Positions 8,951 to 45,543 of a DNA stretch of 64,000 bases are shown here, piece after piece. Location: NCBI RefSeq assembly GCF_000243115.2, contig NZ_CP007035.1, positions 1,736,001-1,800,000 of the forward strand, given 5' to 3'. The DNA comes from Niabella soli DSM 19437. GTDB lineage: Bacteria > Bacteroidota > Bacteroidia > Chitinophagales > Chitinophagaceae. How positions within the stretch are numbered: the first letter of the stretch is position 1; every line of letters begins with the position of its first letter. The notes under the pieces are model-generated. The model was not told the origin of the DNA. It did no database searches and saw only the letters and a list, made by a program, of their open reading frames with translations. The translations under genes were made by a program, and so were the position numbers.

Positions 8951-8998
8951 TAAAAATAGCGGAACCCGGCAGTATAACCATCATGCTCCGTCCTGATA
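8951..8998 (-). promoter_or_regulatory. Candidate promoter D: direct repeat plus -7 box before PL11
   Basis: Read on the minus strand, 8998-8979 holds CAGGACG, three bases, then CATGATG (one mismatch to CAGGAYG). After exactly 20 bases comes TATTTTTA at 8958-8951, one mismatch from the Bacteroidota -7 consensus TAnnTTTG. The start codon at 8901 is about 50 bases further on. The same layout with identical spacing occurs before three other operons in the window, so I read it as an activator site overlapping the -33 region. No regulator gene is visible here. Confidence 0.6.
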
Positions 8999-9124
8999 TC
9001 CGTACTATGCAGCATTGACACAAAGCATTTATTTTCTGCAAAAGAAGCGCCACGAATCCTCCAGAGGCGGACACAGTTCCATCGTTCTGCGTTGTAGCAT
9101 GATTTAACGATACAACGAAAATGA

Positions 9125-9265
9125 TCCGCACAGATCAGCGGTCAAAAAGGTCTCCCGCATTCCGATTTATCGGAAGCAGACTTTCACAGAAGAAGGAAGT
9201 GTAATCCGCGCCGCGCCATCGGCTCCCGATTTATCGGGATGCGAGATCTGCGGGCTAAAAAAAAA
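9125..9265. repeat. Intergenic dyad repeat with two CCGATTTATCGG palindromes
   Basis: The 578-base gap 8902-9479 contains no convincing gene. Besides promoter D it holds two related palindromes, TTCCGATTTATCGGAA at 9160-9175 and TCCCGATTTATCGGGA at 9224-9239. They sit within a larger imperfect dyad whose ends read GATCCGC...AGATCAGCGG and GCGAGATCTGCGGG. Such elements resemble dispersed intergenic repeats of Chitinophagaceae. They may also act as structured 3' ends after the SusD gene. Bases 9266-9479 show nothing recognisable apart from AT-rich sequence. Confidence 0.5.
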
Positions 9266-9479
9266 TTTTTACTCATCCCTAATCATGCGATTTTAAACGC
9301 TTTAATTCCTGCTAAATCTATGTGCGTATAACTAGTTTAAACGACTTTGTTGTACAGAATACACCAATGGAGTTTGAACATTCGTCCGCAGCACGCGTTC
9401 AGAACGCCTGTTACAGATCCAATCCGGAACAAAAAGTTTAACGGCATCTTGTTTTTTTGTCACTGATTTTCTCATCGTT

Positions 9480-11273
9480 TTATTTCCATTTAAAGGGCAA
9501 ATAAAATTCACCGGCGGTAAGCTTTGCTTCTGCCGCGGCTGCGTTGCCAGCACCATCTTTTCTTAGCTTGGCGCCTACGCGGGCAGCGATATAAGTGGGA
9601 TCGTGCCGGCGGATGGACACCCGTAATAGATCGGACCAGCGCTGCCCTTCATAGGCCAGCTCCAGCGCGCTTTCATCCGTAAGCATATCTTCCACGGCAA
9701 TGGTGCTATCGCCCACTAATGGTCTTGATGGTAAACTGGCCCTGCCCCGCAAGCCCGCCATATCCCTGTAAATAGCCCTGAACTGCGGATTATCGCCACT
9801 CCGTGCATCAAAATCATAAGGCGCAGGCAAGAAGGTTTGCTGAATATTAGTCACGTTTGAAGAAGCATTAGGAGGGGTATAAGTTGTTTTTATTCCCTGG
9901 TTTACTATGGCGTATCCCAATTTAGGATAACCATCCCGGTTGGCGGCTTCTCCAAAATGCTGCCATACCGATGCAGCCCGGTATAACCACCATTCACCGG
10001 TACGCGTATTGGTATTTATGGTAGGAACAAAGGTTTTCCCATCCATATAATAATAGAGATATTTCATAATAACCGGCTGCCCGGCAATCGTCCGGTAGGT
10101 AAAATTACCGCGGGCGTCAAACGGAAATCCGTTGTATTGGGTTTGGCTGTTCCAGTTATCCATTGCCTGCTGCGATGGCTTTACCAGGTAGCTTCCATTG
10201 ATATTGGAGAACAGGTCAATAAAAGGATTCTTTGGCTCAAAGCTGCTGCTGAACGACATGTGCCAGATCCATTCCCAATCGAATTGCTGATCGTAACTGA
10301 TCTTACCCCGTGAGAACATGGAGCGCCAGCCTTCGGTGTTGCTATCGTACAGTGCATTGATATCACTTTCCCGGTACCGCACATATTGCACGGCAAGCTG
10401 GTTCCCGCTGGCCGGATCCGGGGCACCGATTAGCTTATAATAGTTCTTCTTGGTATTATCATTGCCCTTATCATCATAATAAGAAATGATCTGCCGGTAA
10501 GCCGTTGCGGCTTTGTTATAGGAAGACGGATCGTAAGCGGCGTTCCATAAATACAGATCGCCCAGCAGCACTTTTTTCATGATAAAGAATTTTTCCGTCC
10601 GGTACTGATCCACCGTAGTCATTAAAGAAGCCGCACTGTTGTACATTTCAAGGGTGGGCAGGCTTTCCATTGTTTTGATCAGCTCTGCTAATAATTGCTG
10701 AAAGGGTAACCATCGGTATTTTGTTTCATCTTTTACATCCTGTATGGTTGCCAGGGGGTCCGTTACATAAGGAATGCCGATGATTCCTTTAGTATCCTTG
10801 CTAAAATGGATACCCAGTTGTAAATACACCCATGTGCGCACCGAAGCCACATCAGCATAACGCTCATTATACTCATCCTGTTTCATTTTCTTTTCCGCCA
10901 GCATGATGTCAAAATTTTTCATCACGTCATTGCAGTTCAGAATCACCTCGTAAAAAGGCGCGGGGTCGATGTAAGGATTATCCACTGTAACATTCTGGTT
11001 GCTCAATTGCTGCAGGTAAAGATCCGCGTTTGCCGTGGGCGACATCAGGTCGGCCCGCAGCTCATTCAGCAACACGTACGGCCTGGCCAGTTTCAGTAAT
11101 TTACCATACACCCCTAACACCGCGGCATCTGCATCGTATACATTGCGATAGGTTTGCTCCCCGGCGAGCGTGGACTCCGTTGTTACATCAAAAACTTTTT
11201 TGCAGGAGGGCAATAACAATGCACCCATCAATACCGGCACTAAGAAACTAAGTTTTATTATAATTGATTTCAT
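9480..11273 (-). CDS. SusD/RagB-family glycan-binding lipoprotein
   Basis: This 597-residue outer-membrane lipoprotein would form the lid of the SusC-type transporter encoded immediately upstream (23 bases). A hydrophobic signal ends in the lipobox LPSCKK, with the acylated Cys near residue 24. The SusD superfamily shows in the opening segment with TYRNVYDADAAVLGVYGKL, the tetratricopeptide-like helical core, and the C-terminal region where LELAYEGQRWSDLLR matches the usual RxxELxxEGxRWxDLxR motif. It would bind oligosaccharides of pectin origin at the cell surface. It is the last gene of block C. Family assignment is firm; ligand is inferred from context. Confidence 0.92.
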   Translation of the reverse strand: MKSIIIKLSFLVPVLMGALLLPSCKKVFDVTTESTLAGEQTYRNVYDADAAVLGVYGKLLKLARPYVLLNELRADLMSPTANADLYLQQLSNQNVTVDNPYIDPAPFYEVILNCNDVMKNFDIMLAEKKMKQDEYNERYADVASVRTWVYLQLGIHFSKDTKGIIGIPYVTDPLATIQDVKDETKYRWLPFQQLLAELIKTMESLPTLEMYNSAASLMTTVDQYRTEKFFIMKKVLLGDLYLWNAAYDPSSYNKAATAYRQIISYYDDKGNDNTKKNYYKLIGAPDPASGNQLAVQYVRYRESDINALYDSNTEGWRSMFSRGKISYDQQFDWEWIWHMSFSSSFEPKNPFIDLFSNINGSYLVKPSQQAMDNWNSQTQYNGFPFDARGNFTYRTIAGQPVIMKYLYYYMDGKTFVPTINTNTRTGEWWLYRAASVWQHFGEAANRDGYPKLGYAIVNQGIKTTYTPPNASSNVTNIQQTFLPAPYDFDARSGDNPQFRAIYRDMAGLRGRASLPSRPLVGDSTIAVEDMLTDESALELAYEGQRWSDLLRVSIRRHDPTYIAARVGAKLRKDGAGNAAAAEAKLTAGEFYLPFKWK

Positions 11274-11296
11274 GACTGACTCTTCGTTTTTAAAGA

Positions 11297-14200
11297 TTAT
11301 AAACCAAATCTTACACCTACCTGAACCGACCGGTACTGTGGCTCCAGCACCACATCCACGCCCTGTCCCAGCGGGCTAATAGTAGCGCTGGTTTCAGGAT
11401 CATAGCCCAGGTATTTGGTCAACGTAAATAAATTATTTCCTGTCAGGTACAATATGGAATACCTTAAAAAATTAGTTTTTACCGGCAGGTTGTACGAAAG
11501 TGTTGCCGACCGCAACCTCAGATAAGAACCGTCTTCAATCCAGCGATCAGAAAAGCTGCTGTTCCCTACAGGATCCCCGTATAAAGCACGGGGCATAGTG
11601 GTTACCTGCCCGTCGGCCCGCCAGCGGTTCAGCACTGCTGTCGTTTGGTTGTTGAAATTTGATTCGGACTCCAACTGTCTCCGGGTATAGTTATAGATAT
11701 CGTTTCCCCTGGTGAAAGTGAAGAAGGCATCCAGCGTTAAGCGCTGCCAGGTAACACTGGTGGAGATCGAACCGAAGAAATCGGGGTTGGGATCACCGAT
11801 CACCTGCCGGTCTTTTTCATCAATGACCTTATCGCCATTTACATCAACAAAACGCACATCTCCCCCTTTAAAAGGAACAGCGGCCCCGGAGAATTGGATC
11901 ACTTTTAACCCATCTGCCGCCGCTGCTGCATCAGAGCTGTACACGCCGTTTGTCTTATAACCGTAGAACAGGTTCGGTGTATTATTTACGCTGCTTAAAA
12001 TATATCCGTCTGCATAAGGAGTCACAATATTCCAGGGATCCGGCAGCCGGGTTATGGTCGATTTGTAACGCGCAATGGTAAATCCCAAATCCCATTTTAA
12101 AGAGGATCGGTTTATAATTCTTCCGTTCACGGATGCTTCTGCGCCCAGGGTCTGCATCGATCCGCTGTTGGTATACGCATGGGTGATACCCGCTACGGTG
12201 GGAAGGGTTTCGTTCACGATCATTTTGTAGGTCCGGTTGCGATAGGCGTCCAAACTAATATTCAGGCGCTCCTTAAACAAAGCCGCATCGATGCCCAGGT
12301 TTGCTTTATATACGTTTTCCCATTGCAGGCCACTATTCTCGAAATTGCCGCGTACCAACCCTTCTGTGCCCAGAAAGTTTTGCGAAGAATAATATTGCCC
12401 TGAAGTATAGTTGGCCGCATAGTCACCGGTCAGTCCATATGAAATATAATATTGCCGTGCCCGATAATTCATAATATCATCATTGCCGGATAAGCTATAA
12501 GAACCTCTCAGCTTCAACAGATCAAACACCCGGTCGTTGGCCATAAAGGGTTCCGATGAAAGCAGCCAGGCGCCGGCGAGTGAAGGCATCACTGCAAAGC
12601 TATTCCCATTAATATGCAAGGCCCCGGGAACATTTTTACCAAAGCGGGAAGACCCGTCCACTGCCATATTGAAGGATGCAAAATATTTATCGCGTAACGA
12701 ATAATCTGCGCCCAGGTAGGTGTTCAGCCACCGGTAGCGGGTAATATCACCCCCTACTCTTCTGAGGGCCGCAACGCCGTTGCCCACGCTCTTCAACTGG
12801 TCCGTAGCGGAGTTGGCGCCGAGGTCCCAATCCAGCTCTGTGCGGGGCGCCATAAAACGCATGCCCGCCCGTGCTGTTAGATGATGAATATTGTCGAACA
12901 CCTTGTCATACGTAACGCGGGTATCATTGTACACGCTCAGTAAACGTTTGGTTTGCGCTCCCAGACGACTGTCGATGATCACATCGTTCCCGGTGGTATC
13001 ATCCACAACTCCTTTGCGCGGAATGAATAAATTCTCCCGGATCTTATCCAACGTAACGGCCACGATGGTATTTACATTAATTGTTTTGGAAACAAGATAA
13101 TTAAACCCAACCGACCCCAGGAAACGATAATTATTATTGCTGCCCGATGCTGAATGGATCAGGGCTGCCGGGCTGCTTACATTGAAAATATCTGTATCGG
13201 TAATATCCGGAGACTGTACTCCCGCTGCAGACATTTCATTAACCCCGATCAGCGGTGCTTTTATGAGCGCCGAAAAGATGGGGTTGGTCTTATAGGCAAG
13301 CCCCTGGTCCTTCAAATCCTGCTGGTTATAAGTAAAGCTAAGATTAGCAGTGGCGGTTAGTCGTTTGCTCAGATTCAAATCTGCATTAAAACGCGTATGA
13401 TAGCGGGTAAGGCCGGTGCCTTTAAGGACACCCGCGTTAGACATATAGCCTAGCGAGAGCGCGTACTTTGCAATATTATCGCCGCCGGTCACCTTGATGG
13501 AATAGTTTTTAAATGCACTGTTCCTGAACACCTGTTTTTGCCAGTCGGTCTGGTGATGATAGCGGTAATAATCCGGGTTCGACGGATCATCATTCATATA
13601 AGGATAGCTGCCTGCCTGCGCTGCAGTGGCCCCTGATGATTGCAACAGATCGCCCAGGTAGGTCCGGTACTGACCGGCATCCATTACCGGGAGATTCCGT
13701 GGCGCAAAATTAACGCCACCATAAGCACCCACATCAATGCGGGTACCCAGTTCTTTGGCTCTTGCGGTTGTGATCAAAATAACCCCATTGGCGCCCTTGG
13801 TTCCATAGGTGGAAGCCCCGTCCTTGATCACTGTAATATTATCAATGTCCTTGATGTCGATATAAGCAAGTGGGTTGGTGTAACTATTGGAGTTCAGCGA
13901 GCCGCCGTAATCGGAATTATCATAGATCACACCGTCTACAAGGATCAATGGTTGATTCGTTGTGTACAAAGATGTAATGCCCCGCAGAAAAAGATTAGCG
14001 CCCACATTGGGCGTGCCGGAACGGCGGATGGCGTTCAGTCCGGCTACTTTACCCTGCAGGAAAGCATCCGGGGTTTCCGAGGTATGCGCCCAGTTGCCCT
14101 GGCTTTGCACGGAGGTAACAGCAAAAGGGATCCGGTTGGTAGCTTGCGTTCCGAAAGGGAGGTTTGCCCCATCATAAAAGGAAGCAAAAGCCTCTTCGTA

Positions 14201-14533: not shown

Positions 14534-14564
14534 GTTAATATTGTATATAAGTTAATTTATCTTT

Positions 14565-16055: not shown

Positions 16056-16111
16056 TTTTCTTTATTTATTAAACAAGCTATTCGTATCGGCTACTATTGA
16101 CTATTCATTAT

Positions 16112-17848: not shown

Positions 17849-17854
17849 TGCTGC

Positions 17855-19360
17855 TTATTTATAAAAAGGATTCTGTACAAGATTTTTATCGGTTTGCAGT
17901 TCATATTGATAAATCGGAAAATAATGACTGTTGGGGTCTTTGAATTTGGCTATTGCCGATTGCTGCAAATTGCCGGGAACCGTTGACGAAACCATATTCA
18001 GTAAAATATCGAGCCGCTTGTAATTATTTCTTTTAGCATGGCGCAGCAGGTCGTACCAACGCTTTCCTTCAAAGGCAAACTCCCGCGCCCGCTCGGCCAG
18101 GATGTAATCGCACAGCCCCTCCGTATCTCCGGGATCAACGCTTTGCTCCGTTGAAGGCAGCGCATTGGCCCGCTGGCGTATTCTGTTGATCAGATCGAGC
18201 GCATCCTGTCCTTTTCCCGTTAATGCCAATGCTTCCGCCTTCATCAATAGAATGTCAGCATAGCGGTAAACGATCCAGTGCGCAAAGGAGGCTTCTGCTG
18301 TTCTTAAATTATCATTATCCACCCCAATGTATTTCCAGATCAGCCCATCGGCGAAGCGGGCTGCAGCGCCATCGCCCCGGATATCCTTATGGGTGGGGTC
18401 GATAATATCAGCCTGATAAATACCTACATCCGGATCGGTTACCAGGCCGGACGCCACAAAGCGCGGCCGGGAGCGAAACATCGTATAAAAGCTGTTCAGT
18501 TTCTGATCATCAAATTGCACTTCAAAAATCCCTTCATTGGAGTTACCGTTAACAAACAACCGGGCAAACCAGGAGGAGTTGCCTGCCAGCAGCCCATATT
18601 TTCCGGAATTAATCACCTTGTCACAAGCCGCAATCGCTTCAGGATATTTTTCCATCCACAAATAAACATCGGCTTGTATAGCATTCACCGTGTACCGCGT
18701 AATTCTTCCTTTATCGAAGTCGTTGTTATTAAAAGTGAGAGGTGTTGTAACTTCTGCTTCGGATAAATCCTTTACAATCTGGTTCAATACATCGGCGCCT
18801 GTGCTCTTGCTCAATTGTTGCAACTGATCGTCACTGGAAGTAGATTTTAGCACCAGCGGCACATCTCTGAAACTTCTTACCAGATAAAAATACAGGAGCG
18901 CCCGCAGTGCTTTTACTTCACCCAGGTAAGCATCTAAGGCCTGCCGGGTAAAGGTCTGGTCGTTCTTTAATACATCCGGCGCAAAGTCTAATACTGTGTT
19001 ACAATAATTGATCGTGCGGTAGATCGACCGCCAGTTCGTAATACTATTGGTTTCTAGAATATTCGTATTAATAATGTCCAGCTCGTTACTCGCCACGCCA
19101 ACGGACGGCGTAAGCATGTCGGCCCTTAGCTCGCCCCATAAAAAAAGATATTCGGGTATGGGCGCATCGGAGCCGCCGCCCAGCAGGGAGGCATAGCAAC
19201 CATTGACAGCGGCCGCCACCTGCTCTTTTGTTTTCCAGAAATTCTGCCGGATGATGCCATCCTCCGGCTTCAGATCCAAAAACTTATTGCAGGATACTGC
19301 GGATACCAGCATCAACAGCAGCGATAAAAATTTTATTCGACTATTTTTAAAGAGTTGCAT
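17855..19360 (-). CDS. SusD/RagB-family glycan-binding lipoprotein
   Basis: This 501-residue SusD homologue has the lipobox VSAVSCNK (Cys near residue 25). It opens with the family's usual LDLKPEDGIIRQNFWKTKEQVAAAVNG-type segment. The helical repeat core includes YTVNAIQADVYLWMEKYPEAIAACDKVI. The C-terminal signature LAERAREFAFEGKRWYDLLRHAKR is a very good match to the family. It would pair with the SusC protein encoded 17 bases upstream to capture pectin-derived oligosaccharides. It is the middle of the three SusD proteins in the window and belongs to a different subfamily from the other two by length and sequence. Confidence 0.94.
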   Translation of the reverse strand: MQLFKNSRIKFLSLLLMLVSAVSCNKFLDLKPEDGIIRQNFWKTKEQVAAAVNGCYASLLGGGSDAPIPEYLFLWGELRADMLTPSVGVASNELDIINTNILETNSITNWRSIYRTINYCNTVLDFAPDVLKNDQTFTRQALDAYLGEVKALRALLYFYLVRSFRDVPLVLKSTSSDDQLQQLSKSTGADVLNQIVKDLSEAEVTTPLTFNNNDFDKGRITRYTVNAIQADVYLWMEKYPEAIAACDKVINSGKYGLLAGNSSWFARLFVNGNSNEGIFEVQFDDQKLNSFYTMFRSRPRFVASGLVTDPDVGIYQADIIDPTHKDIRGDGAAARFADGLIWKYIGVDNDNLRTAEASFAHWIVYRYADILLMKAEALALTGKGQDALDLINRIRQRANALPSTEQSVDPGDTEGLCDYILAERAREFAFEGKRWYDLLRHAKRNNYKRLDILLNMVSSTVPGNLQQSAIAKFKDPNSHYFPIYQYELQTDKNLVQNPFYK

Positions 19361-19377
19361 ATTCTTTAATTTTTCAT

Positions 19378-22300
19378 TTAGAAAGAACCGGTTAAACCGA
19401 TGGTAAAGGTTTTTGAAGGCGGTGTTACGGATTGGTCGGTTGCCACACGGAAGGGATCGGAGCCGCGCAGTGAAACTTCCGGATCCTGGCCGGTATAGTT
19501 TGTCCAGGTGTACAGATTTTCCACGGTCAGATACGCGCTGAGGTTCCTGATCCGTAACCGTTGTATCAATGAAGGAGCAAAAGTGTACCGCAGGGTCATG
19601 GTTCTGAACCGGATGAACGATGCATCTTCCACATAGCGGTCGGAACCCAGCCAGTTGTAACCCGAGCCAAACAATGCCCTTGGAATATCCGTTTCATCTC
19701 CTTCCTTGCGCCATCTTCTCAATACCGCAGTGCTTTGATTATCGTAACCGTACATATTTGTGGTCAGCATTTTGGTCTGGTTGATCACATCATATCCATA
19801 CCGGTAGTTAAAGAAGGCGGTAAGTTTTAACCGGCCTTTAAAGGTAGCGCTAGCGCCAAATCCGCCCGTGAATTTAGGGTTGCTGTTGCCCAGGTACACC
19901 GCATCCATATAGTTAATATTCCCATCGTGGTTCATATCTTCATACCGGGCATCGCCGGGTTGAAAAACATAGGCCGTTGCGGGATAATTGAACCGCATAT
20001 AAACCGGCTGCCCTTTGGCATCCAGGATGGGCTTGCCATCTGCACCGGTGGCAATAGTGGCTGCAGCATCCTTATACACCCCCAGATACCTGAACCCATA
20101 AAACGAACCGAAAGGGTTATTGACCTGCATAAAGGTTTTATATTGCCCGTTGCCGGTGATATTCCCTTTTTCTGTTGGGTAAAAAGGCGATATCTCGCGG
20201 ATAATATTCTGGTTCTTCGCAATATTAAAATTGAGGTCGATCTGAAGCTTTGATGAACGGTATGGTGTGGTGTTCAACCCTATCTCCATTCCCTGGTTAT
20301 CCATGGTACCTACATTCATGCTCACACTATTGAAACCCGTGAATGAGGAGATCTGGAGACCGTCAAAGAACAGTTGTTTGGTACGGTTTTTATAAATCTC
20401 CACATCCAGGCTAACCCTGCCTTTGAACAGCATCAAATCGAAGCCCAGGTTCTGACCGGTAATAGTCTCCCAGCGCAGGTTCTTCAACTCCATATTAGAA
20501 GGATAGACGGCCGCCTGACCCAGATAGCCCCAGTCAAAGTCGGAATAAATATTATAAAAGGTATAATCCCTGCGGGGCGCGTTCCCGCTGATACCATAGC
20601 TTGCCCGGATGCTCAGGTCATCCAGCCAGTTTTGATATTTTTTCATAAAGGGCTCACCGGAAAGCCGGTAGCGCGCAGACACTGATGGAAAGTATCCATA
20701 GCGATAGGCGGGACCAAATCTTGAATTACCATCCATCCTGGCTCCCACATTTATGATGTACCGGTCGAGGTAACTGTATTGGTGACTAAACGTAGCACCG
20801 ATGCTTCTTGTTTGTGCCGTTCCTGAAGCAATGGCCAGGTCCGCATTTTGTGTACGCGAGGGATCGGACGGATCGGTCAGCAGGGAGGAGGCCGTATTGG
20901 AAGTGCGCGCCTCCTGTTTCACACTCTTATTGTCATACGTAAATAAAATAAGCGATGACATATAATTGTGCTTCGGATTTTTAAAATGCGGCGTATAGAT
21001 CAAACTGGTTTTGGTCTGTACATTAAACACATCCACATCCCCGTCATAAGCGCGATTAACGGAGGTCTCCGTCCACGGCCGTCCGGTGGCGGTTTGCGGA
21101 AGAAAGGATTTGGTTTTGGTGTTGTTGATATCGAATTGCACATCAAAAACTGCATTCAATACGTTTCTTAATATGGTATACTGAAGATTAAAGTGCGGCG
21201 TTACCCTTTCCGTAGTTACATTATATTTTGCATCGGTAGCCATCGCTACCGGGTTCACCGTTCCCTGGATATTATTCCTGGTATCGATGCCTAAAAATTG
21301 CCCCTGGATATTTGATGCCGGCGAAAAGAAGTTGGGCGTAAGGTTACCAAATTCATCATACTCGTAAATGCTCATATTGGGCATTTTTTTATACGCAATA
21401 TCCCGGAGGTTATTGGCGTAGTTTTTATCATTATCCGTATGAGAAAAGGAAACATCACTCCGGAATTTAATCCGGGTTGAAACGTCGTAATTGAGGTTGA
21501 TACGGGTGCTGATGCGTTTTAAACCGGTGCCGATGGTGGTACCTGTTTGGTCCAGATAGCCTACGGAAGCGTAATAGCGCGCCTTCTCTCCCCCGCCAGA
21601 CATCGATAAATTGTGATCCTGGATCCACCCCGGCCGCGTAATAGCATCTACCCAGTTGGTATTGTTACTGTAGTTATGATACCAATACGGGTCGTTGGGA
21701 TCATACTGAAACTCTTTAATCGTTTGTGTATTTAAAGGCGTACCGTTCCGGTTCATGTATTCTTCGGGAATTAAAGTAGAATACTGATCGCCAGATAACA
21801 TGGGTATGGCATTGGGCTGCCGGGTAACAGAACCCTTGAACGTATAGGTGAGCACAGGCTTCCCAACGGTGCCGCGCTTGGTATTGATCACCAGAACGCC
21901 GTTGGCGCCCCGGGATCCCCAAACCGCTGTGGCTGCCGCGTCTTTCAAAATGGTAATATCTTTAATATCTGAAGGCGCTATATTTAACAGCGAGGCATAG
22001 CCCAGCTCATCCGCAGCGCCAAAGTTAAAATCAGCAGGGATCTGCGTTTCATACGGCATACCATCCACAACAATCAACGGGTCTGTAGAAGAGTTGATAG
22101 ACGAAGTACCCCGGATACGGATCTGCATACCGGCTCCCGGATCACCGGAGGAAGCCGCGATATCCACTCCAGGCAAACGGCCCTGTAAGGCCTGGTCAAT
22201 AGAAGCCGCCTGCATCTCTTCCATTTCTTTGGCATTGATCCGGGAAGCAGCGGTGGTGCGGTCCCGGTCGCTTATCGGCATCAGGCCATTGTCTGTTTTG

Positions 22301-22665
22301 GCCTGCGAAACCACCACTACTTCGTCCATTCCTTTTGCTTTGGTGTTCAGGGTAACATTAACCGTTGTGCGGTTACCGATGCCCTGGGTAATCGTTTCCG
22401 CACCGATATATGAAAACATCAGTGAGTCTGCCGTGTTTTCCACGCGTACCACATAATTACCATCGACGTCGGTTCTTGCCGCTTTTATGGTACGCTGGTC
22501 TGCATCTACTTCAGCCACTGTTACCCCGCGAACCGGTTTACGGTCCTCATCAAGCACCCGTCCCTGCACGGTCACCGTTTTCGGATTATTCTGTGCCGTT
22601 GCCATCCTGCCTGCAAGAAGAAGGATAACAAACAAGACCACTAATCGCAGTATACTTTTTTTCAT
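19378..22665 (-). CDS. SusC/RagA-family TonB-dependent outer-membrane transporter
   Basis: This is a TonB-linked transporter of about 1095 residues. A GTG at 22686 overlaps the stop of the upstream fasciclin gene by one base. However, the ATG at 22665 gives a clean signal peptide (MKKSILRLVVLFVILLLAG...TAQ), so I use that. The order is a carboxypeptidase-regulatory-like domain (VQGRVLDEDRKPVRGVTV), a short linker with MDEVVVVSQ, a plug (IRIRGTSSINSSTDPLIVVDGMPY, DIKDITILKDAAATAVWGSRGANGVL) and a barrel ending with TIGLTGSF. It pairs with the SusD gene at 17855-19360. The near-overlap with the fasciclin gene shows that the two are one transcriptional unit. Confidence 0.94.
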   Translation of the reverse strand: MKKSILRLVVLFVILLLAGRMATAQNNPKTVTVQGRVLDEDRKPVRGVTVAEVDADQRTIKAARTDVDGNYVVRVENTADSLMFSYIGAETITQGIGNRTTVNVTLNTKAKGMDEVVVVSQAKTDNGLMPISDRDRTTAASRINAKEMEEMQAASIDQALQGRLPGVDIAASSGDPGAGMQIRIRGTSSINSSTDPLIVVDGMPYETQIPADFNFGAADELGYASLLNIAPSDIKDITILKDAAATAVWGSRGANGVLVINTKRGTVGKPVLTYTFKGSVTRQPNAIPMLSGDQYSTLIPEEYMNRNGTPLNTQTIKEFQYDPNDPYWYHNYSNNTNWVDAITRPGWIQDHNLSMSGGGEKARYYASVGYLDQTGTTIGTGLKRISTRINLNYDVSTRIKFRSDVSFSHTDNDKNYANNLRDIAYKKMPNMSIYEYDEFGNLTPNFFSPASNIQGQFLGIDTRNNIQGTVNPVAMATDAKYNVTTERVTPHFNLQYTILRNVLNAVFDVQFDINNTKTKSFLPQTATGRPWTETSVNRAYDGDVDVFNVQTKTSLIYTPHFKNPKHNYMSSLILFTYDNKSVKQEARTSNTASSLLTDPSDPSRTQNADLAIASGTAQTRSIGATFSHQYSYLDRYIINVGARMDGNSRFGPAYRYGYFPSVSARYRLSGEPFMKKYQNWLDDLSIRASYGISGNAPRRDYTFYNIYSDFDWGYLGQAAVYPSNMELKNLRWETITGQNLGFDLMLFKGRVSLDVEIYKNRTKQLFFDGLQISSFTGFNSVSMNVGTMDNQGMEIGLNTTPYRSSKLQIDLNFNIAKNQNIIREISPFYPTEKGNITGNGQYKTFMQVNNPFGSFYGFRYLGVYKDAAATIATGADGKPILDAKGQPVYMRFNYPATAYVFQPGDARYEDMNHDGNINYMDAVYLGNSNPKFTGGFGASATFKGRLKLTAFFNYRYGYDVINQTKMLTTNMYGYDNQSTAVLRRWRKEGDETDIPRALFGSGYNWLGSDRYVEDASFIRFRTMTLRYTFAPSLIQRLRIRNLSAYLTVENLYTWTNYTGQDPEVSLRGSDPFRVATDQSVTPPSKTFTIGLTGSF

Positions 22666-22685
22666 ATTGCAGTTTATATGCTTCA

Positions 22686-24884
22686 CTATTTGGAATACTT
22701 TAAATAATTATCAATAAGGTGAATGATCGTTCTGTTGGAAAGATTATTGCTTTGCGGAACCACGACATTGGCTGCCCGGCCCGTAACATCATTCACAAGC
22801 ATGCTCCCCGGCTGGCTGATCACCGTAACAGGTATTACTTCCCCCAAACCGTTCTTGAGCAGGGTTTCAAAAGAGCCGGATTCTTTTCCGTTAGGGATCA
22901 ATGAGTATTTTGCAAGGATGTGGTACAATATAAAATTGGCAACCCGGTCTTTTTCTGCCGCCGTCCATGTGGATGCCGTCAGGTTGGGCACCCCGGTAGT
23001 AACATTACCCGGCAGTACGCCATCCATTACCGCTTTTTTTATAGCAGCATTAGAGGGAACAAACACCGTGTAAAGCGTGCCGGAAGTAGTGCCGGTAATT
23101 TCGCCGGTAGTGGCATTGTACAGGCCGGAGTTATTCAAAAACTGCGAAAAATAATAAAAATCAGACGCAACCGAAGTGCCGCCCAGGTTCATAATATGCT
23201 TTCCAAAAAGCCAGGAGCTATACGTGAGCAATCCATTAAGATAATACACTGTACCATTCTTCGTTGTTCTTGTGCTGTCTACATTTACAGCGACACTGGC
23301 ATCCTGCGTACCTGCAGACATTACCTGCATATTATTCCACTTAATAAATTCGCCATTGTAGGTTTCAGTAATCCCCGCTCCCGCTAAGGATGTTAAATTT
23401 TCAGAAACAACACTGCTGTTTAAAATACGTAAAAGCGTTTGGCGCACCGATTCTCCTGAAACCGTTGTGGAGCCTGAAGTGTAGGTAAAAAGATTGCTGT
23501 TCACATCATAATTATACCCCGCGGCCCGCAGCACGGCATCCGGCATCATGAACAAGGTAAATTTTGCCTTGGGGTTGGTAATAATGTACCGCAGATCCGT
23601 ATTCAGCAACCGGATCATGATGGAAAACTTGGGGTCGAGGTAGGCCCTGGAATATACTGTTGAAAAAACATTGGCATCCTGCACTTTGCTGGTTCCGTAA
23701 AACATGCCATTGCTCAGGATCCGGCGGTCAATAATATCCGCCCGGGGATCGAACCGTGCCTCTTCCCCCACAAAGTTTATGGCAGCTTTAAACTGGCTGG
23801 GCCACACCGGTGTTTGCCACATATGTGCGTTCAGGAAGTCCAGTATAATAGAAGTTGGCGTATTGTCGAAGGATTGATAATATTCCAGCAGTACATTTTT
23901 CTCATAGTCCAGGAGCACCTCGTTCTTGGGTACAAACATGGTCCAGGAGCTTTGCTGGGCGTCATTATCCTGAAGCTTAAGAAAATTTTCACTGTTGGGC
24001 GAAAAAGCAAGCGAAGTGTTGTATACTTTAACATATACCTGTTTGCTATCGCCCGTCAACAGTTTATACCGGTTCGTGGCCTCACTATTCAAAACGAAGC
24101 TTACCATGTATTTATCAAATAGTTTTCTAAACTCGCTGTATTCCGGTTTGCTTCTTAAATATTCCTCAATAGAAGGCAGCGGTGTCAACACCCGGTCAAT
24201 CTCGTGTATCACCCCATTTTGGGCATTCAGGTCCTGGTTGATGACTTTCGCCTCTGCGATATTAAAGCCTGCATATGATGTATTGGGATAAAAATAATTA
24301 TAGTCAGCAGCCGTAAGTCCCTTGCCTCCAAAATAAATGTCGGTGAAACAAGGAATATACTTATTATTATTATCGCCGGTTATATAGCCCGTGTTCCTGT
24401 TAGACTGAATCGTTTTCACCACAGTGCCGTTTTGCATCGTATCATCATAAAAGCCCGTGTAATAAGCCGTGCGGCGCCTGAAGGCCTGGTCGGGCACCCA
24501 TCCCGTGCTCGACTGATAATCGTCGATCGTGTTTTTATTAAAAGCATTATACACCAACATGAATTGTATCAATGCGCGGGCTTTGCTGGAATCCATTTTT
24601 TCAACTGAAGTATTGTTGGCGGCGAAATAGGCTTTAAATGCTGAATCATTGGGCGCAAAAAAGGTCCAGTAACCGGCGCTGCTTAATGTATTTTTATACC
24701 CCGCTTTGTCTATGACACTCAATAGCTGGGTAAACGTTCCCTTTGCCTGCAGTTCTGCATAGATCGGTTTACTTAGATTATCGGGAACATTATAAAACTC
24801 ATCCCATGTTTTTTTGCTACAGGCCGTTACCAGAAAAACAAGCAGCCCAGCAGCCACGCATTTAATAGTCCAGGTTTTCATCAT
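22686..24884 (-). CDS. Multi-FAS1-domain lipoprotein, first gene of block C
   Basis: This 732-residue lipoprotein has the lipobox FLVTACSKK (Cys near 22). I can follow four FAS1-like repeats: about 40-240 (YWTFFAPNDSAFKAYF ... NGVIHEIDRVL), about 240-385 (SWTMFVPKNEVLLDYE), about 400-555 (FTLFMMPDAVLRAAGY), and about 560-732 (YTVFVPSNAAIKKAVM ... RTIIHLIDNYLKY). The middle ones are divergent. Repeated FAS1 folds suggest an elongated adhesive or glycan-binding protein on the cell surface. It leads the operon that continues directly into SusC/SusD, and its own promoter element is at 25276-25323, leaving a leader of nearly 400 bases. Specific ligand unknown. Confidence 0.85.
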   Translation of the reverse strand: MMKTWTIKCVAAGLLVFLVTACSKKTWDEFYNVPDNLSKPIYAELQAKGTFTQLLSVIDKAGYKNTLSSAGYWTFFAPNDSAFKAYFAANNTSVEKMDSSKARALIQFMLVYNAFNKNTIDDYQSSTGWVPDQAFRRRTAYYTGFYDDTMQNGTVVKTIQSNRNTGYITGDNNNKYIPCFTDIYFGGKGLTAADYNYFYPNTSYAGFNIAEAKVINQDLNAQNGVIHEIDRVLTPLPSIEEYLRSKPEYSEFRKLFDKYMVSFVLNSEATNRYKLLTGDSKQVYVKVYNTSLAFSPNSENFLKLQDNDAQQSSWTMFVPKNEVLLDYEKNVLLEYYQSFDNTPTSIILDFLNAHMWQTPVWPSQFKAAINFVGEEARFDPRADIIDRRILSNGMFYGTSKVQDANVFSTVYSRAYLDPKFSIMIRLLNTDLRYIITNPKAKFTLFMMPDAVLRAAGYNYDVNSNLFTYTSGSTTVSGESVRQTLLRILNSSVVSENLTSLAGAGITETYNGEFIKWNNMQVMSAGTQDASVAVNVDSTRTTKNGTVYYLNGLLTYSSWLFGKHIMNLGGTSVASDFYYFSQFLNNSGLYNATTGEITGTTSGTLYTVFVPSNAAIKKAVMDGVLPGNVTTGVPNLTASTWTAAEKDRVANFILYHILAKYSLIPNGKESGSFETLLKNGLGEVIPVTVISQPGSMLVNDVTGRAANVVVPQSNNLSNRTIIHLIDNYLKYSK

Positions 24885-25275: not shown

Positions 25276-25323
25276 CAAAAGTAATATCCGCGCGGCGGCT
25301 AACTGTCCTGTGGCATCCTGCAA
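25276..25323 (-). promoter_or_regulatory. Candidate promoter C: direct repeat plus consensus -7 box
   Basis: On the minus strand, 25323-25304 holds CAGGATG, three bases, then CAGGACA. Exactly 20 bases later comes TACTTTTG at 25283-25276, a perfect match to the Bacteroidota -7 consensus TAnnTTTG. It is the best -7 box of the four equivalent elements found here. The predicted transcript would start about 380 bases before the fasciclin gene, a much longer leader than at the other three promoters. A LacI-type palindrome lies 13 bases further upstream. Confidence 0.65.
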
Positions 25324-25336: not shown

Positions 25337-25354
25337 TACGCAATCGATTGCGTA
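25337..25354. promoter_or_regulatory. LacI-family-type operator palindrome
   Basis: TACGCAATCGATTGCGTA is a perfect 18-bp palindrome with a central CG and GCAA/TTGC half sites. That is the classic layout of LacI/GalR/PurR-family operators. It lies 54 to 71 bases upstream of the block C -7 box and 13 bases upstream of the CAGGAYG direct repeat. Block C may therefore respond to a second, sugar-sensing regulator. No LacI-family gene is in the window. I found no equivalent palindrome next to the other three promoter elements. Confidence 0.6.
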
Positions 25355-30777: not shown

Positions 30778-32151
30778 CTATTGTCCCATTTGCACCGAAC
30801 TATCATTTAATTTAAAGGGATGTAATTGCAACAACCGGTACATTTCGGCCCCTGCAAGCAGAACGGGCCCGTAACCATGCGCTGCATAATTATTTACCGG
30901 GCGGTAATAATAGAATGCGGGATCAAAACCCATCCCAGTGCCTACGCAAACGCCTTCCACCTGCCCGCGGGCTGTAACCTTTGTGGATACTGCATTCCAG
31001 GCCAGGAGGGTCATCGGCCCATAGGCTTTGGCATCGAGCCAGCCTTTGTTAATTGCCCGTGCAATACAATAGGCGTAGATGGCGGTAGCCGAGGTTTCCA
31101 GATAGGAATCATTTCGATCGATCAACTGATGCCAGAAACCCGTTTTATCCTGGTATTTTGCCAGGCCGGCCACATGTTTTTTCAATTGTTCTATAATAAA
31201 AGCCCTGCCGGGGTAATCTTCAGGCAATGCATCCAACAGTTCTATTTTGGTGAGTAAGGCCCATCCGTTGGCCCTTGCCCAATGAAATTGCGGATGCGGG
31301 TCCATACCCTGCACCCATCCATGCATGTACAGATTATTTTCAGGGTTAAACATTCTCTCCGCAAACTGCCGGTATTGTTTCAACGCTTCAACAAAATATC
31401 TTTTGTCGTGAGTCAGCTTGCCCATTTGCACCAGGGCGGGAAGGCTCATATAAAGATCATCCAGCCAAAGCGTGTTGGGCTGCGGCCGGTTGCGGGCGAA
31501 GGTTCCGTCCTTCAACCGGAATTCCTTGGTCATGATGTAGCGGATATAATTATCCACCATCGGACGCACTACCGCTGTATTAGCGCCGGCAGCCATCGCT
31601 TTTATCATTGCAGCAGCCATAGCCCCCGCATCGTCCAGGGCGTGTGGCTCCAACACGGAACGTACGGGCACCGTTGCATCAACGTTAGCTTTTTGAATCG
31701 CTTTATAGCCGCTAACAACATCGCCTATAAAATTGACCCGGTTCACCGTATATTGTTTGTAGCGCCTGTCCCCGGTAGCCGCTGCCACTTCCAGCATTCC
31801 CGTATAGGTAACGCCCCACTCGTAACTGATCAGCCTGAAATCTCCCGGCTTAAAAATGCAGACAGTGTTTATCTTAGAAAGATCAGCCACCGGCGCTTTG
31901 GTCTCCTTATTGATCAACTGCATGGGCGTAACGCTGTCCAGATAAGTGAACACCCGGTCCAGCACTGCTTTTACGCTTTTTCCCGTGGTTTCCCCATAGG
32001 GGGTAACATAATCAGGTTTCATCAGGTGCAGCGGGGTCGATGCATCATTGCCTCCTCCCTGCACATATTGCGCCTGTACACCCATTGGAAACATACAGAG
32101 CAGGATAAAAAAGTAATTGCCGCACTTTTTAATTTCTGGTTTATAATTCAT
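30778..32151 (-). CDS. GH105 unsaturated rhamnogalacturonyl hydrolase
   Basis: This 457-residue enzyme of family GH105 (YteR/YesR type) is an (alpha/alpha)6 barrel. It removes the unsaturated galacturonyl residue that PL11 lyase leaves at the non-reducing end of rhamnogalacturonan oligomers. The signal peptide is residues 1-27 (ending GVQAQ), so it should be periplasmic or surface-bound. Family features: LEPHALDDAGAM, WLDDLYMSLPAL (Asp231/Asp232, candidate catalytic region), HGWVQGMDPHPQFHWARANGW (about 277-297), and the final barrel part with CVGTGMGFDPAFYYYRP. It is the first gene of block B; the promoter element is 145 to 195 bases upstream. Confidence 0.94.
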   Translation of the reverse strand: MNYKPEIKKCGNYFFILLCMFPMGVQAQYVQGGGNDASTPLHLMKPDYVTPYGETTGKSVKAVLDRVFTYLDSVTPMQLINKETKAPVADLSKINTVCIFKPGDFRLISYEWGVTYTGMLEVAAATGDRRYKQYTVNRVNFIGDVVSGYKAIQKANVDATVPVRSVLEPHALDDAGAMAAAMIKAMAAGANTAVVRPMVDNYIRYIMTKEFRLKDGTFARNRPQPNTLWLDDLYMSLPALVQMGKLTHDKRYFVEALKQYRQFAERMFNPENNLYMHGWVQGMDPHPQFHWARANGWALLTKIELLDALPEDYPGRAFIIEQLKKHVAGLAKYQDKTGFWHQLIDRNDSYLETSATAIYAYCIARAINKGWLDAKAYGPMTLLAWNAVSTKVTARGQVEGVCVGTGMGFDPAFYYYRPVNNYAAHGYGPVLLAGAEMYRLLQLHPFKLNDSSVQMGQ

Positions 32152-32296: not shown

Positions 32297-32344
32297 CTAA
32301 TGTAGAACGAACTTTTTTATCAGCCATCCTGACCCATCCTGCAT
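32297..32344 (-). promoter_or_regulatory. Candidate promoter B: direct repeat plus -7 box before GH105
   Basis: On the minus strand, 32344-32325 holds CAGGATG, three bases, CAGGATG, the most regular copy of this element. Exactly 20 bases later comes TACATTAG at 32304-32297, one mismatch from TAnnTTTG. The GH105 start codon at 32151 is about 145 bases downstream. Spacing between the repeat and the -7-like box is the same as at promoters A, C and D. Confidence 0.6.
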
Positions 32345-33252: not shown

Positions 33253-33486
33253 TGTTCCTTATCTTGACGCATATGCGACGAAAATCGGGATTCGTTCCGT
33301 CGAAACGACGACAACATTAATGATTGGTTTTCATAACTTAAAAACATATGTCATTGGCAGGGCTATCGGAACAGGGCAACAGAGGCCCTTTAGTGTCGGA
33401 TTAGCATTACTTGCAATAAGCAAGTATAAACAGAGCGCTCCGTTCTTTGCCACCGAAACACAAAAAGCACTGAGGCCGTTCATCGG

Positions 33487-34917: not shown

Positions 34918-34947
34918 ACGAATATGTTTGCAATGTATTAAGAACGA

Positions 34948-35751: not shown

Positions 35752-35787
35752 ATATTTTGTATTTTAAATTCAGATCATGATTCATAA

Positions 35788-35969
35788 CAGAAAGATTTCT
35801 CCCTGCGGTCGAAATGACGTTTTTGTTTTAATAATTTATCGTTTGCCGTTTCTCGTTCTGCATCCATTAACCTGTTTCTATTGACACGCTTCAATCATTT
35901 AGGCATTAAGGCCATTAAGAGCTCAACTATTCTTGACTCCTTAATGGTTTATCGTTTGTCGTCCCTCGT
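35788..35969. repeat. Dispersed intergenic repeats between CE12 and GH43 genes
   Basis: The gap holds AGATTTCTCCCTGCGGTCGAAATGACG, split here as a polar repeat (related to 3885-3942). It also holds two copies of a sequence around CGTTTGCCGTTTCTCG and CGTTTGTCGTCCCTCG (near 35840 and 35950). I see neither a gene nor the CAGGAYG promoter element, so the CE12 gene is probably still transcribed from block A. Confidence 0.35.
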
Positions 35970-36962: not shown

Positions 36963-36966
36963 AGCC

Positions 36967-39816: not shown

Positions 39817-39912
39817 GAACTATTATTATTTTTTTTGGTCGGCTTCAGCACTACTATCAGCTTCCTTGTGTCACTCACTGCAGTGGTTGTGCAGATAGCA
39901 GCGGTTGAATCA

Positions 39913-40950: not shown

Positions 40951-40962
40951 CAGCTTTAATTA

Positions 40963-42567: not shown

Positions 42568-42579
42568 AGTTCACCGGGT

Positions 42580-45423
42580 TTATTTCAAAGGCGTCAGGGT
42601 CACCGGCCCTAAAAGGCCCGATGGAAGCGGGCTCCAGCCCGATGCATCAAAAATGCCGTTCTTTACATTTTCCTTTTTCCGGGCCGCTATATTCACATTG
42701 TAAAATATTTTCCAGGGCATATTGTTTTTATCCATATAGGAAATGCGGTTGGCCATCAGGTTGGCTACCTTTATTTCCAGTGCATTCTCCGTTTTTAATA
42801 AGGCAGCGGGGAGCACGGTTGTAAACGAAGGACCGATCAGCGTGGCAATAGATTTGCCGTTGAGGACCACTTCCGCTGTAGCCGCTACTTTTCCCAGATC
42901 CAACAGGTAATTTCGGGCATTCTTCCCCGGCTTTTTAAATCGCGTGGTATAAGAGGCAATCCCTGAAAACGCCTGTACACCAGCTTCCTTCAGCTCCGTC
43001 CAGGGTTGTAGTGTTTTTAAATTAACGGCGCCGGGAAGAGACGGCCCCCCTTCAATAAAAGAAAGCTTCCAATCTTTGTTTAATGCTATTGCCGGCCCGC
43101 CGGCATTTTTGTAAGGGAATGCTGCTCCCGTTTTTAAAGCTGCAGCGGTCTGCACAATAACAGAGGCATAGGGTTGCAATTGCACCCGCAGCTCAAATCC
43201 GTTTGCGGCAGCTCTGATCATTCCCAATCCTTTTTCGCCGGTCATTGCATCAAACAGCACCGCAGCTTTTGGATGCCCATCGAAATGGATCCATTCTTCA
43301 ACGGGGTGATCAGAACGGTTATTAATAAAATAGGTCTTACCGTCCGCCTGTTTCCTTCGTAATACAAAAATATCTTTGTCGCTACCGCTGGCTTCTCTGA
43401 TATGCCCGGCTTTCATCAACGCATCCAGGTCATCACTTATATAAAATGCACCGGCTCCTATAACTGCTTTTTGCAAGGAGCCTTCTTTTATAAATTTCAG
43501 TTGCGCCGCGGCAGCCTGCAACCTTTTTCGCCGGGCGTCCAGTTGTGCCATCCCCGGAACGTCGGCAGGCAGTGCTTTATACGCCAGGATGGTTGCCCCG
43601 CTTTTTGCGAGGTTGATGAGCTTTGAAAAAGAGAGATCATCAATTAGCTTATTAGCGGGTAAAAGGATGGCCTTATACTGATTACCACCTGTGATGATGG
43701 CGCCGTTTTTATAATCAAACTGTGCCAACTGCCGGTCAGAAAAGAAATCAAACCCAACACCGCGCTCCGTCATTTTATTGGCGGCATATTCGAAACCGGT
43801 ATGTTCAAAATTCCGCTCCATGCCATCAAAGTGTTGCAACAACGGACCGCCCGTTTCCGAATACCGATCAATGATCGGGTAGTACAAGAGCACATCGTTA
43901 TCCGGTTGCCCTTTTTGTAAAAAAGATTGTACCCGTGTAATATATTCGTTAAGCGCATGAAAATGCTGCCACTGCGGGTTCACCGGCTGAAAATGCACCG
44001 CTGCATAAAACAACCATCCAGGCCAGGCTGCGTCTTTTGGCGAATAGGCCGTGCCATGATAAAAGATATGATTGACTCCGCCCAGGAAGTAAAGATCGAT
44101 CGCCTTTTTCACATCTCCCAGGGAAGATAGGAAATGCTCATTCAGCCAGGTGGCCGATTCGGAAGAGACCAGCTTTTTACCGCTAACATGCGCTGCAGAT
44201 GTGGCAAATTTGAACCGCAACAATTCGGTTCCTTCCGTTTCGGGAATATCTACCACACTATACAGGTCAAGCGTATTAGCGGGTGATCCGTGGCTCTGGT
44301 TGCGCAATAGTTTGCCGCGGCCATTGCCCCATTGTTTCCACACTTTTGTAAAATTATCCAGCAATAACTGATCAATTACCGAACGATAATCATACAACAC
44401 CCTTTTGTTTTTATCCTCGCTGTCTTTACCAAACAGGGCCGGCAGTTGTGTACGCAGGTCGTACCCTTTTTTATTTTTGAATTCAGCAAAAAAATCATCT
44501 GTCCAGTTGGCTTGCCCGCGCGCATCATCTACTTCGTAAGAATCATTAAAGAATCCCCGCAGGTAACTGATATCGGCTCCTTTGAACGCCTTATCAAATT
44601 TTTTGAAATAGTCAGTAGCTGCTTTTTTTGAAAAATGATCGATCGCATAGCCTTCACCACCCGGCGCCGCCCGCTCTACCATTTTCCCATGCAATCCTTC
44701 AAACAACGCGTATAAGGTCCAGCTTTCGCCTTCCGCCGGCGCCACCCAGTTCAGCTTTCCGCCGGCAGATACTTTATCAGTAATATCAACAATGCGACCG
44801 TTATTGCTATAGGCCATCAAAGAGATCAAAGGGATCGGACCAGGGTACTGGATCTGATCCAAAGCCAGTTCCTGTAAATTGGTATTGGCCGAAACCGGTT
44901 TTTTAATAAGCGCCAGGTCTGCTTCTTTATTATTAGCGGTACGTACCAGCCCTTTCCGTATAAATTGTACCGGCTCCTTCAACTGCGCGCCCGCTTTTAA
45001 AGAATACGTTTTGTATTCCATTGTTTTGCTGGCATCGGCATCTATAACCCACGGACCGCCAAAGGGCCAGCCGGTTGCGTTGGCCAGGTCAACCCCCAGC
45101 CCGAGCCGTTTGCTTTCTTTTAATGTATACCGGAAAAGTTCCATCCACCGGGGAGACAAGAAACTTACAAAGTTTTTCTCCTGGCCTTCCACTCCGTAGA
45201 TAGGCGTAAGTTCCACGCCGCCCAGGCCGGCTTGCTGGTATTGCTCCAGGTTCCAGGTAAGGTCCTTTTCATTAACGGCGCTTCCCTCCCACCACCAGCG
45301 CGTCCAGGGCTTATTTTCCCTGGTAGTTTTAGGCCACGCTATCTGCGCCTGCGCCGCATTGATCATCACAGCGCCGCCCGCTACTAAAAACGCGCCTTTC
45401 AAATATTTCAAACCGTTGTTCAT
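42580..45423 (-). CDS. GH106 alpha-L-rhamnosidase
   Basis: This 947-residue secreted enzyme of family GH106 removes terminal alpha-L-rhamnose by inversion. The signal peptide ends INAAQAQ. The mature protein begins with the family hallmark RENKPWTRWWWEGSAVNEKDL. It continues with GLGGVELTPIYG and LANATGWPFGGPWVIDADAS, all typical of the catalytic TIM barrel. The large middle part (SHGSPANTLDLYSVVDIPETEG) and a C-terminal jelly roll (about 815-947) complete the usual layout. It would act on rhamnose at the ends of rhamnogalacturonan I oligomers or side chains. It is the first gene of block A, with a promoter element about 70-120 bases upstream. Confidence 0.93.
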   Translation of the reverse strand: MNNGLKYLKGAFLVAGGAVMINAAQAQIAWPKTTRENKPWTRWWWEGSAVNEKDLTWNLEQYQQAGLGGVELTPIYGVEGQEKNFVSFLSPRWMELFRYTLKESKRLGLGVDLANATGWPFGGPWVIDADASKTMEYKTYSLKAGAQLKEPVQFIRKGLVRTANNKEADLALIKKPVSANTNLQELALDQIQYPGPIPLISLMAYSNNGRIVDITDKVSAGGKLNWVAPAEGESWTLYALFEGLHGKMVERAAPGGEGYAIDHFSKKAATDYFKKFDKAFKGADISYLRGFFNDSYEVDDARGQANWTDDFFAEFKNKKGYDLRTQLPALFGKDSEDKNKRVLYDYRSVIDQLLLDNFTKVWKQWGNGRGKLLRNQSHGSPANTLDLYSVVDIPETEGTELLRFKFATSAAHVSGKKLVSSESATWLNEHFLSSLGDVKKAIDLYFLGGVNHIFYHGTAYSPKDAAWPGWLFYAAVHFQPVNPQWQHFHALNEYITRVQSFLQKGQPDNDVLLYYPIIDRYSETGGPLLQHFDGMERNFEHTGFEYAANKMTERGVGFDFFSDRQLAQFDYKNGAIITGGNQYKAILLPANKLIDDLSFSKLINLAKSGATILAYKALPADVPGMAQLDARRKRLQAAAAQLKFIKEGSLQKAVIGAGAFYISDDLDALMKAGHIREASGSDKDIFVLRRKQADGKTYFINNRSDHPVEEWIHFDGHPKAAVLFDAMTGEKGLGMIRAAANGFELRVQLQPYASVIVQTAAALKTGAAFPYKNAGGPAIALNKDWKLSFIEGGPSLPGAVNLKTLQPWTELKEAGVQAFSGIASYTTRFKKPGKNARNYLLDLGKVAATAEVVLNGKSIATLIGPSFTTVLPAALLKTENALEIKVANLMANRISYMDKNNMPWKIFYNVNIAARKKENVKNGIFDASGWSPLPSGLLGPVTLTPLK

Positions 45424-45495
45424 TTAAAAAAATTTATTCCGGTACTTCCACAAGCTGTTGAACCGGCAACTGACAATCGTTTATATCAACCTGCT

Positions 45496-45543
45496 GCAAT
45501 ATAAAGTGCAAAAACAGATATACCGTCCTGCTCCGTCCTGAAT
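45496..45543 (-). promoter_or_regulatory. Candidate promoter A: direct repeat plus -7 box before GH106
   Basis: On the minus strand, 45543-45524 holds CAGGACG, three bases, CAGGACG. Exactly 20 bases later comes TATATTGC at 45503-45496, which keeps the TAnnTT core of the -7 consensus but not its last two bases. The GH106 start codon at 45423 is about 70 bases further. The 48-base layout equals that of promoters B, C and D. The rest of 45544-45675 shows nothing that I recognise. Confidence 0.58.

Follow-up and report, generated by a model that had tools for sequence, protein, structure and literature searches.

A tandem-heptamer promoter element of a putative L-rhamnose/rhamnogalacturonan regulon in Niabella soli, with a GntR/LacI-hybrid protein as candidate activator

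The window analysed here is a stretch of 64,000 nucleotides from Niabella soli DSM 19437 (G000:C1:1736001-1800000 of a 4.70 Mb single-contig genome, hereafter the own genome). It contains four copies, all on the minus strand, of a promoter element composed of two direct heptamers followed by a -7-like box TAnnTT, each copy being located ahead of the first gene of a block. We regard it as reasonably probable that these four elements belong to an L-rhamnose/rhamnogalacturonan (RG) regulon run by a GntR/LacI-hybrid activator at class-II-like sites. The comparison of sequences makes a single regulon with a shared promoter element well supported, and the GntR protein is, by association, a strong candidate for its regulator; activation rather than repression is what we infer from the fixed spacing. 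The elements of the window and the genes behind them are the following.

45524..45540, minus strand: tandem heptamers CAGGACG-GAG-CAGGACG, ahead of the GH106 gene
45498..45503, minus strand: -7-like box TATATT, separated from the repeat by a spacer of 20 bp
42580..45423, minus strand: GH106 alpha-L-rhamnosidase, first gene of its block (PF17132, 2e-70)
32325..32341, minus strand: tandem heptamers CAGGATG-GGT-CAGGATG, ahead of the GH105-like/SusC/SusD genes
32299..32304, minus strand: -7-like box TACATT
30778..32151, minus strand: GH88-family (GH105-like) unsaturated rhamnogalacturonyl hydrolase, with SusC/SusD next (PF07470, 2e-88)
25304..25320, minus strand: tandem heptamers CAGGATG-CCA-CAGGACA, ahead of the fasciclin/SusC/SusD genes
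25278..25283, minus strand: -7-like box TACTTT, inside a perfect TAnnTTTG
22686..24884, minus strand: fasciclin-domain protein, first gene of its block, then SusC (19378-22686) and SusD (17855-19360)
8979..8995, minus strand: tandem heptamers CAGGACG-GAG-CATGATG (G/T hybrid), ahead of PL11
8953..8958, minus strand: -7-like box TATTTT
7021..8901, minus strand: PL11 rhamnogalacturonan lyase (PF21348, 3e-212)

The four elements share the same 10-bp period and the same 20 bp to TAnnTT, and all of them lie where the first-pass annotation, made from the letters of the sequence, had placed them. Its pattern CAGGAYG-N3-CAGGAYG-N20-TANNTT is matched exactly by the elements 45498-45540 and 32299-32341. 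The elements 25278-25320 and 8953-8995 show one mismatch each, in the second heptamer (CAGGACA and CATGATG, respectively), so that CAGGAYG is not literal for all eight heptamers; both departures are ordinary variants that are also used in relatives. The copy announced with a perfect TAnnTTTG is the element 25278. The first genes had been read as GH106, GH105, fasciclin and PL11, in agreement with Pfam, except that the second is scored as GH88 family; we take the product of 30778..32151 to be a GH105-like enzyme. In dinucleotide shuffles of the window, a mean of 0.15 matches was obtained at up to three mismatches, and none of 100 shuffles reached the observed 5. The fifth match (26225, plus strand, three mismatches) is located within a SusD gene of the opposite strand and was set aside.

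In the own genome, the pattern CAGGAYG-N3-CAGGAYG with at most one mismatch was detected at 11 places, against 3 in the reversed control; 1715068 and 1712165 were the two new ones among them. The improved consensus of the element is CAKGAYRV-NN-CAKGAYR-N19/20-TAnnTT. The refined repeat CAKGAYRVNNCAKGAYR recovered eight exact sites, for a chance expectation of about 1.0 per genome (scaled from shuffles of a 115-kb region). All eight display a TAnnWT box at 20 bp, which reads TAnnTT in seven and TATCAT in the eighth, and all are located ahead of rhamnose or RG genes: six around the polysaccharide utilization locus (PUL), one at the rhaT operon and one at an operon for an extracytoplasmic function (ECF) sigma factor. 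The concentration of sites before pectin genes that a genome scan had been expected to reveal is thus observed. The sites outside the window are listed below.

G000:C1:1715068, just outside the window: exact site with N20-TACTTT, then SusC, SusD, an oligogalacturonate-lyase-family gene and a GH28 gene
G000:C1:1712165, just outside the window: site with box TATCAT, ahead of a GH88-family gene
G000:C1:4581354: exact site ahead of rhaT, an aldolase/dehydrogenase fusion, an isomerase-like gene and an FGGY kinase
G000:C1:907877: exact site ahead of an ECF sigma-FecR-SusC-SusD-GH106 operon
G000:C1:3740586: weaker site with box present, ahead of a GH78 rhamnosidase gene
G000:C1:2672480: weaker site with box present, ahead of a GH127 gene divergent from a GH78

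The GH78 and GH127 sites were chosen post hoc among 24 matches at up to three mismatches (10 in the reversed controls). A one-mismatch match at 4433295 was dismissed because it sits within a GH2 reading frame. Judged from these sites, the regulon would comprise 8, probably 10, promoters in the own genome. The rhamnogalacturonan regulon of four operons first proposed is therefore retained as a regulon, with a larger number of promoters and a scope that appears to cover L-rhamnose as a whole.

The same pattern at up to one mismatch gave 166 matches (sum of the per-genome counts) in 66 of 244 genomes of the family Chitinophagaceae, against 4 in the reversed control; the genome counts given here and below ignore kinship. 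With the shared geometry and the scan of the own genome, these counts support the proposal of one promoter architecture common to the four operons. Among 36 aligned sites the flanks and spacers are almost unconserved, and T is absent from the two pattern-free positions directly after each heptamer. The base after the repeat is indeed G in the four window copies, but it is G in 19, C in 9, A in 8 and T in none of the aligned sites.

A scan with the repeat only in 18 genomes yielded 112 matches against 3 controls. The box was read in 98 of them (the 5 own sites were read apart and 9 sites of G185 left out): TAnnTT is present at 20 bp in 55 sites and at 19 bp in 17, with no more than three at any other spacer between 0 and 60. 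The 20-bp peak is inflated, since the 18 genomes were picked via the N20 pattern; the 19-bp peak and the loci fetched by the regulator (see below) are free of this effect. From the 78 sites with TAnnWT at 19 or 20 bp, 75 distinct first genes were drawn, of which 73 were scanned, the products of the other two being too long. They encode SusC-type proteins (20), fasciclin (11), GH88 family (7), GH28 (4) and GH78 (4) and, more rarely, GH106 (3), PL11 (2), RhaT (1) and others. No regulator was found as first gene behind the boxed sites among the families listed (the best 25 of 32 and the best 25 of 33). At one promoter of the locus L148 (G047, 9298-9318), four tandem heptamers follow each other in 10-bp steps, so each 10-bp unit may be bound independently.

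The link with rhamnose catabolism is visible in G018, where the element lies directly ahead of rhaT, an aldolase/dehydrogenase fusion, an isomerase-like gene, a kinase and an FMN-dependent dehydrogenase. Twenty rhaT-family loci were fetched, 18 of which contain the remaining operon genes. An exact site is present upstream of rhaT in 16 of the 20 (13 of CATGAY type, 2 hybrids and 1 of CAGGAY type); among the others, two have degenerate copies and two are siteless, both without the aldolase and isomerase genes of the operon. The corresponding CATGA-type pattern CATGAYRSNNCATGAYR-N19/20-TANNTT occurs 78 times in 67 of the 244 genomes (control 1). Of the 20 rhaT loci, 13 carry a GntR-family gene of about 343 amino acids. 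In 11 it is directly divergent to rhaT; in the remaining two it stands three genes away and at the distal end of the operon, respectively. It is the sole regulator among the nine families present in at least three rhaT loci, families in one or two loci being mostly unscanned; the other eight families include RhaT, kinase, isomerase-like, aldolase/dehydrogenase, mutarotase and lactate-utilisation proteins. Control by AraC-type or two-component proteins encoded beside rhaT was considered and rejected: similarity to the AraC set was seen in 4 of 20 loci (L216, L217, L219, L231) and is of differing kinds. The histidine kinase and LytTR regulator of L219 are common only to L217, of the same genus.

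The orthologue of this regulator in the own genome has the following position.

G000:C1:63220-64245: Niabella orthologue "RhaR-GntR", about 340 amino acids, with GntR and Peripla_BP_3 domains

The protein displays an N-terminal GntR winged helix (PF00392, 4e-14) and a C-terminal LacI/periplasmic-binding sugar domain (PF13377, 2.5e-6). The AlphaFold model of a 94%-identical protein from Niabella BIN26 (pLDDT 89) contains a winged-helix N-terminus and a LacI-type body, and matches LacI-type domains, including the effector domain of AraR (3tb6). AraR, annotated as "Arabinose metabolism transcriptional repressor", is a related solved protein (DNA-binding domain 4egy, effector domain 3tb6). The annotation had proposed a trans-acting regulator encoded elsewhere, which agrees with the unlinked candidate gene and with the window: no regulator domain was detected in the 30 window and 20 flanking genes scanned, some small or flanking open reading frames being outside the scan. 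Its suggestion of a hybrid two-component system (HTCS) or an AraC-type protein finds no support, the best candidate being this GntR-type winged helix joined to a LacI-type sugar domain. No HTCS gene was found in or beside the PUL among the same genes, and an AraC-type protein or HTCS encoded in the PUL was likewise discarded for the genes scanned. A weaker paralogue is located at G000:C1:4621079-4622044, followed by a 1421-aa frame; it may control the use of another sugar.

We observe both a positional and a statistical tie between the element and the regulator gene in relatives. For at least 41 of the 78 CATGA-type sites, the GntR gene is no more than 600 bp away, a count that is a lower bound since the regulator places used are the best 78 of a longer list. 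When 80 loci were fetched by the regulator protein alone, 46 contained the site and none the reversed control. These loci hold 49 sites, 46 of which have TAnnTT (spacers of 16-24 bp scanned), the spacer being 20 bp in 31 and 19 bp in 15. The strongest dyad upstream of the GntR gene is CATGA-N5-CATGA, present in 40 of the 75 loci searched (shuffle maxima 3-5; five Niabella loci were dropped, the regulator there being unlinked to rhaT). The top inverted dyad, TTTTT-N11/12-AAAAA, was rejected, since in 24 of 25 loci it falls within the adjacent reading frame. The palindromic operator expected of an AraR-type protein was thus not recovered; the top dyad is a direct repeat, of which the protein is only a candidate binder.

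At the level of genomes, a close regulator (E <= 1e-147, a cut fixed after inspection of the match list) is present in 58 of the 66 element-positive genomes and in 41 of the 41 with at least two matches to the first pattern; the eight element-positive genomes without it have one match each. Restricting the comparison to genomes with a putative rhamnose isomerase (rhaI) separates the effect of the regulator from mere rhamnose use: 75 of 90 such genomes with a close regulator have the element, versus 6 of 30 that lack a close regulator (p=5e-10). At a looser cut (E <= 1e-40) the values are 80 of 107 with a relative and 1 of 13 without. In a class-wide set of 247 genomes, a relative at E <= 1e-60 is present in 7 of the 7 element-positive genomes and in 17 overall; four of the seven lie outside the family and have distant relatives.

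Several observations weigh against the proposed regulon and its regulator. In the own genome, none of the targets is linked to the regulator gene, and the 19-kb region around this gene is siteless; the refined repeat at one mismatch gives 50 matches against 22 in the reversed controls, so the looser matches are mostly noise and only the exact sites are informative. Of the 80 regulator loci, 34 have no site within about 3 kb, including all 7 records that bear the name Niabella and all 12 that bear the name Pedobacter. The element is present in the rhaI-positive genome G016, where no relative of the regulator was detected, and neither pattern occurs in 19 of the 95 genomes that have a close regulator. 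Among the seven class-wide pairs, five involve distant relatives (E 1e-93 to 1e-114). Finally, the GntR/LacI hybrids characterised so far mostly act as repressors on palindromic sites. Concerning Pedobacter, L350, L355, L361 and other loci have a close regulator and no element within about 3 kb, and some stand beside an apparent kinase sequence (by eye); the operator of the regulator may differ in these loci.

The mechanism that we propose is a class-II-like activator site, in which a direct repeat of CAKGAYRV, its two units spaced by one helical turn, would be bound 19-20 bp before TAnnTT(TG), the second heptamer standing where a -33 element would be. A cytoplasmic RhaR-GntR would sense L-rhamnose or an early catabolite, a ligand predicted from gene content, and would switch on rhamnose catabolism, the RG-I PUL operons, the rhamnosidases and the ECF-sigma PUL from starts predicted behind the -7-like boxes. 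The element itself was ruled out as an ECF sigma promoter, since the box behind the repeat has the TAnnTTTG form of housekeeping promoters. As for the activator in contact with RNA polymerase put forward by the annotation, we hold it to be probable on account of the fixed spacing. The absent TTTG at -33, on which that argument relied, is a weaker one, since no -33 motif is identifiable in Flavobacterium johnsoniae according to passages of PMC7366714.

The sign of the control is the point at which the same protein could be read otherwise. As a repressor, it would, in the absence of rhamnose, cover the upstream part of the promoter by binding the tandem site, and the sugar would release it. We judge this unlikely: a polymerase-contacting activator needs a fixed distance of 19-20 bp and a repressor does not, and such a fixed position is what we observe: the repeat directly precedes the -7 box, with a spacer of 19 or 20 bp in 72 of 98 and in 46 of 49 sites, no other distance being prominent. 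Activation is preferred on this ground, though with reserve, since AraR, related to the candidate by both domains, is a repressor, and since F. johnsoniae lacks the -33 motif, whose absence may be normal outside Bacteroidales (passages of PMC7366714); the DeoR-type RhaR of Chloroflexus, from a family with 10-11-bp tandem repeats, is described as a repressor too in passages of PMC3870299. It seems still more doubtful that another protein (AraC-type, HTCS or OmpR-type) binds the repeat while the GntR gene merely co-occurs with rhamnose genes. Tandem 10-bp repeats would suit OmpR/PhoB-like dimers, 29 AraC-type domains, including HTCS-sized frames, exist in the own genome (OmpR-type proteins being outside the survey), and a histidine kinase with a LytTR response regulator accompanies rhaT in the two loci of one genus cited above. 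Yet the GntR gene is the only regulator among the nine frequent families of the rhaT loci, the element tracks it even within rhamnose users, and the element is the strongest dyad in front of that very gene. Coincidence in coding sequence, chance or copies of a mobile promoter cassette have a negligible probability: two of the four window copies need a mismatch and the match 4433295 falls in a GH2 gene, but 166 matches stand against 4 controls, the flanks and spacers are almost unconserved, and 8 of 8 exact own sites precede functionally matched genes.

The system can be set beside several known ones. As in the GntR/LacI hybrids such as AraR of Bacillus subtilis, a GntR winged helix is joined to a LacI/PBP-type effector domain and, as with GntR-family sugar regulators, the candidate gene lies beside a sugar operon in many relatives. 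In contrast to AraR, whose operator is a palindrome, the site associated with the candidate is a 10-bp direct repeat found at about ten promoters including PULs, and the control is probably activation. Passages of PMC3878776 assign FucR (BT1272) to the GntR family. According to passages of PMC3870299 and PMC3878776, RhaR of Bacteroides thetaiotaomicron likewise exerts positive control on a rhamnose catabolic operon through a direct-repeat motif, but it belongs to the AraC family and has a single target operon and a periodicity of 21 bp, unlike the 10 bp observed here. HTCS_Rgu-1 and HTCS_Rgu-2 of the same species are also predicted to control RG PUL operons via direct-repeat sites; they differ in being hybrid two-component systems encoded inside the PUL, with 14-bp sites and a 6-bp spacer for Rgu-2 (passages of PMC3878776). 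The DeoR-family RhaR (Chloroflexus, Rhizobium and others) shares a rhamnose regulon and 10-11-bp tandem repeats, and differs by its protein family and, in C. aurantiacus, as a repressor released by L-rhamnulose (passages of PMC3870299). No description of a GntR-type rhamnose regulator in Bacteroidota was found in the open-licence literature, as represented by titles, abstract openings and passages of PMC3870299 and PMC3878776; the word GntR is absent from PMC3870299. The system would be a one-component sugar-responsive regulon of known type, with an unusual repeat, an unusual reach and a role as stand-in for PUL-encoded sensors.

The control of PULs in Bacteroidota has mostly been described for gut Bacteroides, with HTCSs, SusR and ECF sigma factors. 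Control of PULs by HTCSs and SusR in Bacteroides is reported in passages of PMC3878776. We lean, with caution, towards the view that for RG, in this lineage, a single cytoplasmic GntR/LacI-hybrid activator has replaced the membrane HTCSs. At about ten promoters the tandem repeat would stand in for the -33 element, and one regulon would unite rhamnose catabolism, RG-I PULs, rhamnosidases and an ECF-sigma cascade, with conservation in many Chitinophagaceae and a few other families of Bacteroidia. Dispersed PULs and the monosaccharide pathway appear to be governed jointly by a single sugar sensor encoded far from them, through a promoter code precise enough for the prediction of targets from sequence. 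This provides a candidate regulator, a 17-bp site and a target list, together with a candidate rhamnose-responsive promoter for soil Bacteroidota.

Two further motifs accompany these promoters. A LacI-operator-like palindrome is located as follows.

25338..25353, minus strand: palindrome ACGCAATCGATTGCGT, LacI-operator-like, with its core 30 bp upstream of the repeat

Such palindromes (CGCAAACGTTTGCG, ACGCAATCGATTGCGT) occur near the repeat at this place, in the region of G000:C1:1715056 and in G237, G119, G004 and G083. The motif CAAnCGnTTG is found 15 times in 104 stretches of 350 bp (0.3 expected), and for 8 of these 15 copies the distance to the first heptamer, which lies downstream, is 12 or 30 bp. 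The promoters may also be targets of a second regulator, possibly one for uronates. In addition, AAACGATT recurs 16 times between the promoter and the region of the start codon, at about +53 to +99 from the repeat; for the own site 45540 it is at +58. Finally, the part of the window from 45774 to 63604 resembles an extracellular contractile injection system locus, with three eCIS_core proteins, an AAA ATPase, a tape measure protein and a gp25 baseplate protein; it is unrelated to the pectin genes, yet lies directly upstream of the GH106 promoter.

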